Shown: positions 16,412 through 27,079 of the stretch, one piece after another
How the letters are laid out: the number at the start of each line of letters is the position of its first letter
Numbering within the stretch: the stretch's first letter is position 1
Source of the DNA: Antarctobacter sediminis
Lineage (GTDB): Bacteria > Pseudomonadota > Alphaproteobacteria > Rhodobacterales > Rhodobacteraceae
Direction of reading: 5' to 3'
NCBI RefSeq assembly: GCF_019218285.1
Contig: NZ_JAHUZG010000002.1
Coordinates: 930,001 to 994,000, forward strand
DNA: 64,000 nt
Made by a program: the position numbers and the translations under genes
The notes under the pieces: generated by a model
Seen by the model: the letters and a program-made list of their open reading frames with translations, nothing else
The model's database searches: none
Told to the model about the DNA's origin: nothing

Positions 16412-17878
16412 ATGACCGCGCTCGAAGACTTCAAGGCCGCGCTGAACAGCGGCGATGGCGATATTCACGACCGGATCCGAAAGGGACTGATCGGCGAGGA
16501 TGTCCGCATCGACGGCCCTTATGGCCCGCGCCCCCTGGTCTATGCCGATTACGTTGCTTCGGGGCGCGCGCTGACGCAGGTCGAAGATTTCATCCGCGAC
16601 CGCGTGCTGCCCTACTACGCCAACACTCATACCCAGGCTTCGTTCTGCGGCGAATACATGACCCGCCTGCGCGAGGCCGCCCGGGCCGAGATCGCGCGAC
16701 TGGTCAACGCCGGGCCAGAAATGAGCGTCGTGTTTACCGGCGCGGGATCCACGGCGGGGATCAACCGGATCGTCGGTCTGTTGGATATCGCGCCGCGCGT
16801 GCGCGCCGGACAGCGCGTGGTTGTGCTGACCGGACCATATGAACATCACTCGAATATCCTGCCGTGGCGCGAATCCGGGGCCGAGGTGATCGAAATCGCC
16901 GAGGCCACGGCCGGCGGAGTCGACATGGACGACCTGACAGCGGCACTGAGCGCCGCACAGGGGGCCGACCTGATTGTAGGCACCTTCTCGGCGGCTTCGA
17001 ATGTGACCGGCATCCTGACCGACGTGGACACCGTGACCCGCACGCTCAAGGCGCATGGCGCGCTGGCAGTCTGGGATTATGGCTGTGCCGGTCCCTACGT
17101 GACGATGGACATGAAGCCGGGCACCGATGCCCGGAAAGATGCCATTGTCTTTTCCGTTCACAAGTTCCCCGGCGGTCCCGGGTCCAGTGGTGTCGCAATC
17201 ATCCGCGACGGGATCGCCCGCCGTGCCACCCCGACTCTCCCCGGCGGCGGCACGGTCAGTTTCGTCTCTCCTTGGGGGCACGTCTATTCCGGCAGCCTGA
17301 CAGCCCGCGAAGAGGGTGGCACGCCCAACGTGACCGGAGACATCCGCGCTGCGCTGGCCATGCTGGTGAAAGACGCGCTGGGACAGCAATGGCTGGACAG
17401 CCGTCAGCAAGAACTGCGCCAACGCGCACTCAAGGTCTGGGCCCAGAATGACCGGATCGAATTGCTGGGCAAACCGAATGCTACGGCCTTGCCGATCTTT
17501 TCGTTCCGGGTGCGGAACGAAAACGGCGGATTGGTGCATCATCAGTTTTTCACCCGCCTGCTGAGCGACATGACCGGCGTTCAAGCGCGCGGAGGTTGTG
17601 CCTGCGCAGGGCCATACGGCCACCGGTTGCTGGGACTGGATCGCGCGGATTCCGACGCAACGATCGCCGCGCTGGAAAACGGTGAAGAAACCGCCAAGCC
17701 CGGCTGGGTGCGGCTTAATCTTTCGGCGCTCATGAGCAATGAGAAGGCAGATTTGGTCATCGCGGCGGTGGACAATCTGGCACGCATCGCCCCAGACTAT
17801 GCGAAAGACTATCGCGTCGACACCAGTACCGCCCGGTTCAACGTCGATCCTCACCGCAAGGATTCCCTCGCCTCATGA
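16412..17878 (+). CDS. class V PLP-dependent enzyme, cysteine desulfurase/lyase-like
   Basis: This 488-residue fold-type I PLP enzyme of the class V group includes cysteine desulfurases, selenocysteine lyases and isopenicillin-N-epimerase-like proteins. Visible are VYADYVASGR and ANTHTQASFCG at the N-terminus, the PLP pocket VVLTGPYEHHSNILPWRESG, WDYGCAGPYV, and the PLP lysine in SVHKFPGGPGSSG (about Lys251). A Cys-rich loop RGGCACAGPYG (Cys396, Cys398) sits where desulfurases carry their catalytic Cys. It lacks an iscU or suf neighbour, so a housekeeping Fe-S role is unlikely. It opens the ten-gene run with a clear ggggaca ribosome site. The substrate is unknown. Confidence 0.85.
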   Translation: MTALEDFKAALNSGDGDIHDRIRKGLIGEDVRIDGPYGPRPLVYADYVASGRALTQVEDFIRDRVLPYYANTHTQASFCGEYMTRLREAARAEIARLVNAGPEMSVVFTGAGSTAGINRIVGLLDIAPRVRAGQRVVVLTGPYEHHSNILPWRESGAEVIEIAEATAGGVDMDDLTAALSAAQGADLIVGTFSAASNVTGILTDVDTVTRTLKAHGALAVWDYGCAGPYVTMDMKPGTDARKDAIVFSVHKFPGGPGSSGVAIIRDGIARRATPTLPGGGTVSFVSPWGHVYSGSLTAREEGGTPNVTGDIRAALAMLVKDALGQQWLDSRQQELRQRALKVWAQNDRIELLGKPNATALPIFSFRVRNENGGLVHHQFFTRLLSDMTGVQARGGCACAGPYGHRLLGLDRADSDATIAALENGEETAKPGWVRLNLSALMSNEKADLVIAAVDNLARIAPDYAKDYRVDTSTARFNVDPHRKDSLAS

Positions 17879-19221
17879 CCGAAGCTCGGATAAGCCCGAT
17901 CGCCAATCCGTCGTTCCGCACGCTATTCGCCGCTCAGGTGTTTTCGCTATTGGCGATTGGCCTGATGACGGTGGCCATGTCCTTGGCAGCCTATCGCATT
18001 GGCGGAACGGCCGCGGCCGGGCAGATCCTCGGATTTCTGCTGGCGGTCAAGATGATCGCCTACGTTGGCATTTCGCCATTGGCCGAAGCGCTGTTCGCAG
18101 GCCGCCCGCGCAAACGAGTGATGGTGGGGCTGGATCTTGGCCGGATGCTGCTGTTGCTGCCGATGGCCTTCGCCTCGGAGGTCTGGCAGATCGCCGCCCT
18201 GGCGCTGCTGTTCTTTGCGGTCTCTTCGGGGTTTACGCCGATCTTTCAGTCCGTGATCCCCGACGTGTTGCCCGAAGAACGCGCCTACAGTCGCGCGCTG
18301 GTCTGGTCGCGGATCGCCTACACACTGGAATCCGTGCTGTCCCCGATCATCGCCGCCATGGTACTGCAACTTGTGTCCGCAGAGTTCCTGTTCTGGGTGG
18401 CCGCGCTGGCCTTTGTCGGCTCGATCCTCTCGCTGCTTGTGACCCGCTTTCCGTCCGAAAAAGGCGACCGCCGCAAGGGACCGTTCCTGAAACGTGCGCT
18501 GAAGGGGCTGGACATCTACCGCCGCACGCCGCGTCTGCGCGGGCTGTTCCTGCTGAACTTCGCGCTGTCGCTGAGCATGGCCTGGGTTCTGGTGAACTCG
18601 GTCGTACTGGCCGAACTGCGTTTCGGCGACACGGAACGCTACTACCCGATCCTCATGGCCTTTTACGGGCTGGGTGCCGCGATTGGGGCCATTGTCGTCC
18701 CGCGCCTGATCGAGGCGTTCGGAGAGCGCCACCTGATGGTGGCAGGCGCAGTGATGCACGCGGTCGTGGGGCTTGGGATCGCCATGCCGCTTGGCTTCGC
18801 CGGAACAATGGCCCTTTGGGTCGGGTTTGGTCTGGCTTCTTCGCTGGTGCTGACGCCCGGCGGGCTGGTCATCACGCGCTCGGCCAAGTCCACGGACCGG
18901 CCCGCCGTCTTTGCGGCACAGTTTTCGCTGTCCCATGCGGGGTGGCTGATCGCCTATCCGCTGGCCGGGCAATTGGGCGCACTGGCCGGGCTGTCGCCCG
19001 CGCTGCTGATCCTTTCCGGCCTGACATTGGCCGTCGCGCTTTTGGCCACCCGGGTTTGGCCCGCAGAGGATCCGCTGGCCCGCGAACATGATCACCCGGA
19101 ACTGCCCGAGGACCACCCGCACCTGCGCGAGGCCCCGGCGCATGGGCCCGACCACCGGCACGCCCATGCCTTCCACATCGACGAGCTTCACCCGAGCTGG
19201 TCCGGCAGCCGCCCTGCCTGA
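17875..19221 (+). CDS. MFS exporter, NreB-like, with His-rich C-terminal tail
   Basis: This 448-residue major facilitator protein has about 12 hydrophobic segments (residues 15-400). Segments such as NPSFRTLFAAQVFSLLAIG, ALVWSRIAYTLESVLSP and TPIFQSVIPDVLPEERAYS resemble NreB-type nickel exporters. The cytoplasmic tail (about residues 402-448) contains about ten His (EHDHPELPEDHPH, GPDHRHAHAFHIDELH), again like NreB, and may bind Ni, Zn, Cu or Co. The ATG overlaps the previous stop by 4 bases (ATGA). It could export a metal or a metal-chelating product of the operon; the sequence does not decide. Confidence 0.85.
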   Translation: MTEARISPIANPSFRTLFAAQVFSLLAIGLMTVAMSLAAYRIGGTAAAGQILGFLLAVKMIAYVGISPLAEALFAGRPRKRVMVGLDLGRMLLLLPMAFASEVWQIAALALLFFAVSSGFTPIFQSVIPDVLPEERAYSRALVWSRIAYTLESVLSPIIAAMVLQLVSAEFLFWVAALAFVGSILSLLVTRFPSEKGDRRKGPFLKRALKGLDIYRRTPRLRGLFLLNFALSLSMAWVLVNSVVLAELRFGDTERYYPILMAFYGLGAAIGAIVVPRLIEAFGERHLMVAGAVMHAVVGLGIAMPLGFAGTMALWVGFGLASSLVLTPGGLVITRSAKSTDRPAVFAAQFSLSHAGWLIAYPLAGQLGALAGLSPALLILSGLTLAVALLATRVWPAEDPLAREHDHPELPEDHPHLREAPAHGPDHRHAHAFHIDELHPSWSGSRPA

Positions 19222-19255
19222 TCGCGCCCGGGACAAGACTGACAGGAAAGACGAT

Positions 19256-25990: not shown

Positions 25991-25993
25991 TCC

Positions 25994-27079
25994 ATGAGTG
26001 AACAGACACCGCTTGTCCGTATCGAGGGCCTCTCCAAGCACTTCGGAGAGACCGTCGCACTCGACGACCTGACGCTGGACATCGCGCGCGGCGAGTTCGT
26101 CACCTTCCTCGGCCCGTCAGGCTGCGGCAAGTCCACGACCCTGCGTATCCTTGGCGGCTTTGAACGTCCCACCACCGGCCGGGTGATCCTTGACGGCGAG
26201 GACGTGACCAATGTGCCGCCTGAAAAACGCCACGTGAACATGGTGTTTCAGGACTACGCCCTGTTCCCGCATATGACGGTGGCACAGAACATCTCTTTCG
26301 GGCTGGAACTGAAGGGGATGGGCAAGGGCGATATCAAACGCCGGCTGGACGAAATCATGAGCTTTCTGGAACTGGACAGCTATGCCAGCCGCTATCCCGT
26401 GCAACTGTCAGGCGGTCAGCGTCAGCGCGTCGCGCTGGCCCGAGCGCTGGCACCCGATCCGGCGCTGCTGTTGCTGGATGAACCGCTGGGCGCACTGGAC
26501 GCCAAGCTGCGCGGTCAGGTTCAGCAGGAACTGAAATCGATCCAGCGCCGCACCAGCAAAACGTTCTTCTTTGTCACCCACGATCAGGAAGAAGCGCTGA
26601 CCATGTCCGACCGCATCGTGGTGATGAACAAGGGCCGGGTCGAACAGGACGGCACCCCGGAAGAACTGTACTTCCAGCCCGCCAGCCGCTTTGTGGCCGA
26701 GTTCATCGGCGAAACCAATCTGCTGTCCGGCTGGATGCGGGGACTGGACGGCGACAAGGTGGTGATGGACTGGGAAGGCACGACACTGTTCGGCCGCGCA
26801 CCGTCAGGCGTGCCCGCCGAGGGCAAACCCATCACGGCTTCGGTCCGGTTGGAGAAACTGGGTTTCAGCGCCGAACGTCCTCAAACCGCCAACGCGGTGC
26901 AGGGGCGCGTGGTTGGCAAGACCTTCCTTGGCTCGCGCATGGCGATGGAGGTCGCCGTGGGCGACAAGGGCGACGCGATGCTCAAGGCCTATGTCGACGC
27001 AGAAACCGGCCAATCCGTGGGGGCTGACCCGATCTGGATCGGCTGGGAAGCGGACAACATGGCCGTGCTGAACGACTGA
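25994..27079 (+). CDS. polyamine-type ABC transporter ATP-binding protein (PotA-like)
   Basis: This 361-residue ATPase energises the import complex. Walker A is GPSGCGKSTT (about residues 38-47), the Q-loop region MVFQDYALFPHMT, signature LSGGQRQRVALARAL, Walker B LLLLDEPLGALD and H-loop FFVTHDQEEAL. A C-terminal TOBE domain (about 280-361) is present, as in PotA/CUT1-type transporters. It is the last gene of the operon and starts 3 bases after the PotC-like stop. A strong terminator follows 50 bases later. Confidence 0.92.
   Translation: MSEQTPLVRIEGLSKHFGETVALDDLTLDIARGEFVTFLGPSGCGKSTTLRILGGFERPTTGRVILDGEDVTNVPPEKRHVNMVFQDYALFPHMTVAQNISFGLELKGMGKGDIKRRLDEIMSFLELDSYASRYPVQLSGGQRQRVALARALAPDPALLLLDEPLGALDAKLRGQVQQELKSIQRRTSKTFFFVTHDQEEALTMSDRIVVMNKGRVEQDGTPEELYFQPASRFVAEFIGETNLLSGWMRGLDGDKVVMDWEGTTLFGRAPSGVPAEGKPITASVRLEKLGFSAERPQTANAVQGRVVGKTFLGSRMAMEVAVGDKGDAMLKAYVDAETGQSVGADPIWIGWEADNMAVLND

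Follow-up and report, generated by a model that had tools for sequence, protein, structure and literature searches.

A conserved, modular ten-gene operon of Antarctobacter sediminis that may take up and break down an opine-type amino compound yielding a cysteine-like thiol

A stretch of 64,000 nucleotides from Antarctobacter sediminis (assembly GCF_019218285.1, contig NZ_JAHUZG010000002.1, positions 930,001–994,000; the whole stretch is called the window below) contains, at positions 16412–27079, an operon of ten genes that is conserved and modular. The genes encode, in order, a class V pyridoxal phosphate enzyme (PLP), a major facilitator superfamily exporter (MFS), a monooxygenase-like FAD/NAD(P) flavoprotein (FMO), two CMD-family proteins (CMD1 and CMD2), a member of the opine dehydrogenase family (ODH), a periplasmic substrate-binding protein (SBP), and the two permeases and ATPase of a Pot-type ABC importer. 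All ten lie on the plus strand, separated by −4, 34, −1, −4, 41, 51, 55, −4, and 3 bp, and a gene for an Lrp/AsnC-type regulator (Lrp) lies divergently beside PLP. We tentatively favor the explanation that the operon takes up and breaks down an opine-type amino compound, which yields a cysteine-like thiol, and that PLP removes the sulfur from this thiol. Uptake and breakdown were preferred because the importer stays beside the same enzymes, is exchanged for TRAP or amino-acid importers elsewhere, and because ODH tracks the Pot-type importer. A preliminary description, made from the sequence alone, had given the same coordinates, near-overlapping spacing, and adjoining regulator gene, all of which were confirmed; its family names were likewise borne out by Pfam and NCBIfam searches, in the case of CMD1 through a sub-threshold match only.

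When FMO was used as the query against genome contigs, 122 relatives were found, and the best 80 loci (63–90% identity to FMO) were kept; this sample was picked by likeness to FMO, and close kin are over-represented in it. The thresholds for scoring a gene as present were 50% coverage and 38% identity, and some absences are contig ends (e.g., L029, L031, and L077; loci are cited by number). CMD1 was present in 77 loci, CMD2 in 78, ODH in 74, SBP in 72, each permease in 71, PLP in 52, Lrp in 49, and MFS in 46. The eight genes from FMO through the ATPase were complete in 70 of the 80 loci, and all ten genes in 37. The preliminary description had proposed a search for same-order conservation and would have been refuted by genes that are not conserved together; that outcome did not arise, since the order was kept in 70/70 of the eight-gene loci, within a span of 9 kb, and in 36/37 of the ten-gene loci, within 11.5 kb. 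Hosts named in the record titles include Rhodobacterales, Stappia, Roseibium, Chelativorans, Nitratireductor, Pelagibius, Granulosicoccus, and Halomonas. Furthermore, 336 plasmid records matched FMO, chiefly from rhizobia and Agrobacterium, and FMO, CMD1, CMD2, ODH, and SBP occurred together in all six plasmid regions inspected (L083–L088). Literature searches, in which coverage of subscription journals was thin, returned no paper describing the gene set.

Within the operon, FMO, CMD1, and CMD2 are the constant core among loci near this FMO, and the importers are exchangeable. ODH accompanied the Pot-type SBP in 72/72 loci. It occurred without that SBP in two loci, one on a 5.6-kb contig (L031) and one in which it lies on the opposite strand, next to a TctCBA-type importer (L081), and both ODH and SBP were absent from six of the 80 loci, two of these at contig ends. 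A TRAP importer replaced the Pot system beside the enzymes in L075, L078, L081, and L082, and an amino-acid ABC importer stood with the enzymes in L032, L091, L092, and Rhizobium tumorigenes (L122/L175). In a survey of the family (149 genomes, one per genus), FMO was found in 15 genomes, PLP in 43, and ODH in 12. ODH occurred in 10/10 genomes with an FMO of at least 70% identity versus 2/139 others (Fisher p 6e-14), and PLP in 11/15 genomes with FMO versus 32/134 others (Fisher p 2e-4); these p values are only a guide, as the surveyed genomes share ancestry. ODH thus goes mostly, not solely, with the Pot-type route.

SBP (23021–24130; SBP_bac_8) gave a structure model (pLDDT 83) that matched, by Foldseek, PotD, PotF, and the opine binders MotA and AgtB, and therefore has a predicted fold known to accept opines. 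It has this PotD/PotF fold in common with the MotA and AgtB opine importers of Agrobacterium, whose chains are 14–17% identical to it; the operon's enzymes are unlike those of the Agrobacterium systems. The permeases, PotB-like (24186–25190) and PotC-like (25187–25990), both belong to BPD_transp_1 and scored below the cut-offs of NF007044 (181.5 bits; cut-off, 348) and NF007047 (154.3 bits; cut-off, 326), respectively, and the ATPase (25994–27079; ABC_tran) belongs to the PotA subfamily (TIGR01187, 360.9 bits; cut-off, 355.6). In a phmmer alignment to 1pot inspected by eye, the polyamine-anchoring positions of PotD, which we take to be D168, E171, and D257, corresponded in SBP to a gap, D182, and Y278, so that one of three is still acidic. 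Polyamine catabolism was considered and rejected, since two of the three anchoring acidic residues are lost and no polyamine enzyme is found among the ten proteins. The breakdown of homarine, on which a 2026 paper is cited in PMC13390433, or of trigonelline was a further candidate function. ODH (21830–22969) contains an Octopine_DH domain (118.6 bits) and belongs, over residues 17–359, to the same family as N-(1-D-carboxylethyl)-L-norvaline dehydrogenase (CENDH; PDB 1bg6, E 1.3e-31), with H212 and E306-D307 aligned and kept; it differs from CENDH in lying in an uptake operon. H212, E306, and D307, presumably the catalytic His and Glu-Asp, were invariant in 22 sequences. In L132, ODH occurs together with a DAO-type oxidase and a TctA-type importer.

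PLP (16412–17878; Aminotran_5), which the gene assignments mark as a probable cysteine desulfurase or C-S lyase, aligns with SufS-type desulfurases in the PDB, its GGCAC motif having the second Cys opposite the SufS-motif Cys. Its residues H250, K251, R393, C396, C398, and R434 were invariant in 35 sequences; we assume that K251 is the PLP-binding Lys, C398 the catalytic Cys, and R434 the carboxylate-binding Arg. The Lys, Cys, and Arg positions of SufS/CsdA are thus kept, and PLP differs from those enzymes in its Lrp linkage and in its score against the curated SufS model (123.6 bits, far under the cut-off of 475.1); the SufS-type match stops near residue 404 of 488. On rhizobial plasmids, a gene for a metallo-β-lactamase (MBL)-fold protein came next after PLP in all five of the PLP-bearing regions viewed (L092, L110, L122, L124, and L127). 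The L110 protein matches the persulfide dioxygenase ETHE1 (E 1.8e-17), the other four are 65–86% identical to it, and the L092 protein scored 537.8 bits against positions 140–423 of the Blh sulfur transferase/dioxygenase model, which is 423 positions long (whole-protein cut-off, 625). A TauE/SafE gene then follows in L092 and L122. Because a persulfide-dioxygenase-like gene, twice with TauE/SafE as well, follows PLP on these plasmids, PLP is probably a cysteine desulfurase. The action at amino-acid sulfur proposed for PLP in the preliminary description has gained context from these neighbors.

The same sulfur genes also stand beside the FMO set. The Lrp-PLP unit lies next to FMO and the CMD pair in R. 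tumorigenes and Rhizobium esperanzae; with MBL and TauE, it adjoins CMD2, CMD1, and FMO in L092, and on the R. tumorigenes plasmid (L122), Lrp-PLP-MBL-TauE faces LysR-FMO-CMD1-CMD2-amino-acid importer-ODH. The presence of the full set together in R. tumorigenes therefore ties sulfur more firmly to the FMO set and loosens the link between ODH and the Pot importer. Among the other five plasmid regions with PLP (L120, L121, L123, L125, and L126), an MBL-type gene occurred near PLP only in Rhodococcus (L125), at 25% identity. Behind PLP in Roseibium and in L136, there is a partner gene resembling EgtC (188.8 and 166.5 bits; cut-off, 218.65), because of which ergothioneine was considered as a topic. 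Of three genomes with an FMO of 48% identity, two (L128 and L129, not L130) have PLP adjoining it; in L129 the two genes occur with genes for a solute-binding protein, permeases, and hydantoinase A and B, the B gene family being found also in L128 and L119.

Lrp and PLP are a unit of their own with a shared palindrome. The Lrp gene (15817–16281, minus strand; NCBIfam Lrp, 75.5 bits; cut-off, 233) faces the operon, and a divergent Lrp gene was also found in 27 of the 32 family genomes that have PLP without FMO; none was found in L128, L129, and L133. Between Lrp and PLP lies a candidate Lrp operator, CGATCATATGAC (16286–16297), the single such site within the window. The palindrome ATCATATGAY occurred in 25 of 39 Lrp-PLP spacers, whereas no word exceeded 4 in 100 base shuffles; these spacers are what remained after thinning of 45 from FMO loci plus the window, and many come from related species, so that descent explains part of the count. 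TCATATGA was present in 19 of 42 further Lrp-PLP spacers (one is empty, and those of L121 and L148 are nearly identical) and in four of five rhizobial plasmids, and the operator-like site is thus common to Rhodobacterales and rhizobia. In the 5.12-Mb genome of the host itself, the 12-mer occurs exactly once, with six one-mismatch sites (reversed control, one); no relative of PLP or Lrp lies within 1.5 kb of any of these six.

FMO (19256–20722) matched Pyr_redox_3 and Lys_Orn_oxgnase above the Pfam cut-offs, the latter at 38.9 bits (cut-off, 21.3) over residues 128–258 only, and it had no PDB sequence match at E 0.001. The folds nearest to its model (mean pLDDT 80) were PvdA, SidA, and KtzI. 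The 50 fold matches listed comprised 42 amine N-hydroxylases by title, six SsDesB, presumably also an amine N-hydroxylase, and two DiatB; the TM-score to the 48 N-hydroxylase and SsDesB matches was 0.53–0.61 by query length, with a root-mean-square deviation of 5 or more. CMD1 (20722–21201) appears to be a degenerate CMD-family partner, its translation being without the CxxC pair; it matched no Pfam family, and TIGR04029 (71.6 bits, under the cut-off of 100.75) was its sole family match. CMD2 (21198–21788) is an AhpD-like peroxidase-related protein with CxxC (TIGR01926, 188.3 bits; cut-off, 81.8; PDB 2prr and 3c1l). The TIGR04029/TIGR04030 pair (Avi_7170/Avi_7169) is the same kind of two-protein pair, likewise adjoining a flavoenzyme and an importer, and here both proteins fall under the curated cut-offs; we take the flavoenzyme of those systems to be of the luciferase-like monooxygenase (LLM) type. 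Relatives of FMO at about 33% identity lie at 9878–11365 of L089 (a Ti plasmid) and 8923–10365 of L090 (an At plasmid), adjoining LLM and NtaA/DmoA-type monooxygenases, an ABC importer, and an AHL-lactonase gene. The genome of L015 has a second FMO (71%; locus L098) directly behind an Lrp-PLP unit and beside an M24-family peptidase.

In the explanation that we favor, the Pot-type ABC system would import an N-substituted, opine-type amino compound, and ODH would open its N-alkyl link to give a keto acid and an amino acid. FMO, together with the AhpD-like pair, might oxidize and reduce the compound, whether released or still conjugated. The pathway would end in cysteine or a cysteine-like thiol, from which PLP would take off the sulfur, and the Lrp-type regulator may sense that amino acid and switch the operon via the palindrome at 16286–16297. 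MFS (17875–19221; MFS_1; TIGR00900, 191.1 bits, under the cut-off of 319.6) might serve as a relief exporter for a toxic product. The roles of ODH and MFS, the sulfur substrate, the ligand and target of the regulator, and the direction and order of these reactions are what we infer, whereas the data themselves show the operon and its gene order, the swapping of modules, the conserved operator-like site, the kept catalytic residues, and the sulfur genes next to this set elsewhere. A His-rich C-terminal tail (6–17 His) was present in 45/45 MFS relatives examined, down to 42% identity (a 46th, on the other strand in L051, is outside this count); the tail may bind metal or serve the export of a metal-binding thiol.

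A number of observations weigh against this explanation. Apart from PLP, the operon in the window contains no sulfur gene, and no relative of the MBL dioxygenase was found in the 80 FMO loci, in five Hyphomicrobiales loci that have PLP elsewhere (L111–L115), or in 32 further family loci. No local PLP was found in 28 of the 80 loci, some of them cut by contig ends. A whole-record search for PLP (E 1e-30) covered 28 records, namely the genomes of 22 of these 28 loci, the genome of L051, and five plasmids. Of these records, 15 contained PLP, one of two copies in Celeribacter (L051) lying directly behind the operon; 9 of the 23 genomes and four of the five plasmids had none at that threshold, and the core can therefore exist without this PLP enzyme. 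Conversely, PLP without FMO is common (32 of the 134 family genomes mentioned above), and PLP then lies in part beside genes for aromatic amino acids; in 13 or 14 of the 43 PLP loci compared (e.g., L142), PLP is followed by genes for a class I/II aminotransferase and a prephenate dehydrogenase. L030 carries formamidase-like and SDR genes (6687–8441) at the usual place of PLP. ODH is not bound to the Pot importer alone, being found with an amino-acid importer in L175 and a Tct importer in L081, and no CMD gene was found near the distant FMOs (47–48% identity) of L128–L130. The nearest folds of FMO, as modeled, appear to be amine N-hydroxylases, and the ten proteins include no N-acetyltransferase/deacetylase pair, unlike the known S-alkylcysteine routes.

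Several of these points fit an alternative that we consider somewhat unlikely, in which a sulfur-free opine or N-alkyl amino acid is taken up and oxidatively broken down, PLP acting on the carbon skeleton as an aminotransferase or lyase and the sulfur neighbors reflecting another use of the family. The N-hydroxylase-like model of FMO, the substitution of PLP in L030, and the occurrence of the core without PLP in 9/23 genomes speak for it, as do the closeness of ODH to 1bg6 and its company in L132. The kbl-tdh pair (threonine to glycine) also agrees with this alternative; by tblastn, it lies upstream in 11 of the 80 loci (L004–L007, L009, L011–L014, L016, and L080) and is near the set in L087, L088, and L120, often with an XRE regulator and in varying arrangements beside the operon or the Lrp-PLP unit. 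However, PLP keeps the SufS-motif Cys, and PLP, the persulfide-dioxygenase-like gene, and TauE are clustered with FMO and the CMD pair on two rhizobial plasmids. Ti-plasmid opine catabolism uses a two-subunit opine oxidase with a DAO-family subunit, and no DAO family was found among the ten proteins at E 0.001.

Salvage of an S-alkylated cysteine (a thioether) is improbable: FMO would form the sulfoxide, the CMD pair would reduce the sulfenic acid, and PLP would remove the sulfur, much as with CmoO/CmoJ but without acetylation. The known route by two flavoenzymes includes a sulfenic acid that needs reduction, according to PMC10863075, and the distant FMO relatives adjoin LLM and NtaA/DmoA-type monooxygenases. 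The Cmo/Scm salvage of Bacillus subtilis resembles what is proposed here in having a flavin monooxygenase act before cysteine is recovered. The operon differs from it in the absence of acetylation genes, in its class of flavoenzyme, and in its added opine dehydrogenase; an N-acetyltransferase and a deacetylase are features of S-alkylcysteine salvage according to PMC12757645. Among the ten proteins there is no LLM monooxygenase, acetyltransferase, or deacetylase, ODH is left unexplained, and the N-hydroxylase-like fold of FMO is also unfavorable. An opine-like metal chelator that is made, exported, and re-imported, the other of the two readings offered in the preliminary description beside uptake and breakdown of an opine-like compound, is highly improbable. 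It would account for the His-rich tail in all MFS relatives examined, which still speaks for a link to metal, and for an opine dehydrogenase and an importer in one operon, but MFS is present in only 46/80 loci, whereas importers are kept or swapped. Opine metallophores of the staphylopine type involve a nicotianamine-synthase-like enzyme, and no member of the nicotianamine-synthase family was found among the ten proteins at E 0.001. The conserved set includes no outer-membrane receptor, as no flanking family occurs in more than 10/80 loci; single flanks were not scanned for receptors. Of the two readings, therefore, uptake and breakdown is favored by the importer swaps and the ODH link, and the chelator is disfavored by the MFS count and the missing synthase.

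Outside the operon, each flanking family was present in at most 10 of the 80 loci, and several are antisense open frames. Queries for the dioxygenase, TauE, OsmC, MATE, GST-kappa, and TauD were each found in 1–3 of 94 loci (L003–L096, with the query's own locus counted), and these genes are therefore local companions, not core. A tRNA-Leu (cag) gene (15586–15670, plus strand) adjoins the Lrp end of the operon and, as few loci share flanking families, may mark an insertion place. Convergent with the operon is an open frame of 1339 residues (27179–31198, minus strand) that looks by eye like a secreted nuclease with lamin-tail-like and endonuclease/exonuclease/phosphatase parts, and 10669–11358 (minus strand) encodes a membrane protein similar, by eye, to EI24/CysZ.

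The gene set is found again in marine Rhodobacterales, Roseibium, rhizobia, and Agrobacterium, and in Pantoea and Halomonas it occurs beside other importers; a compound of algae- and plant-rich habitats that has yet to be named is therefore probably a common nutrient. More specifically, and with rather little confidence, we suggest that the sea and the rhizosphere contain a widespread natural thio-opine, in which cysteine or a close thiol amino acid bears an N-(1-carboxyalkyl) group, and that the operon is a dedicated modular route for its import and splitting that feeds an Lrp-controlled desulfurase unit. If this is true, the N-carboxyalkyl group would protect the thiol amino acid as acetylation does in the known S-alkylcysteine salvage. 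The module swaps predict which part of the system handles what, and a single enzyme assay could give the Lrp-PLP unit, with its conserved site, a function.

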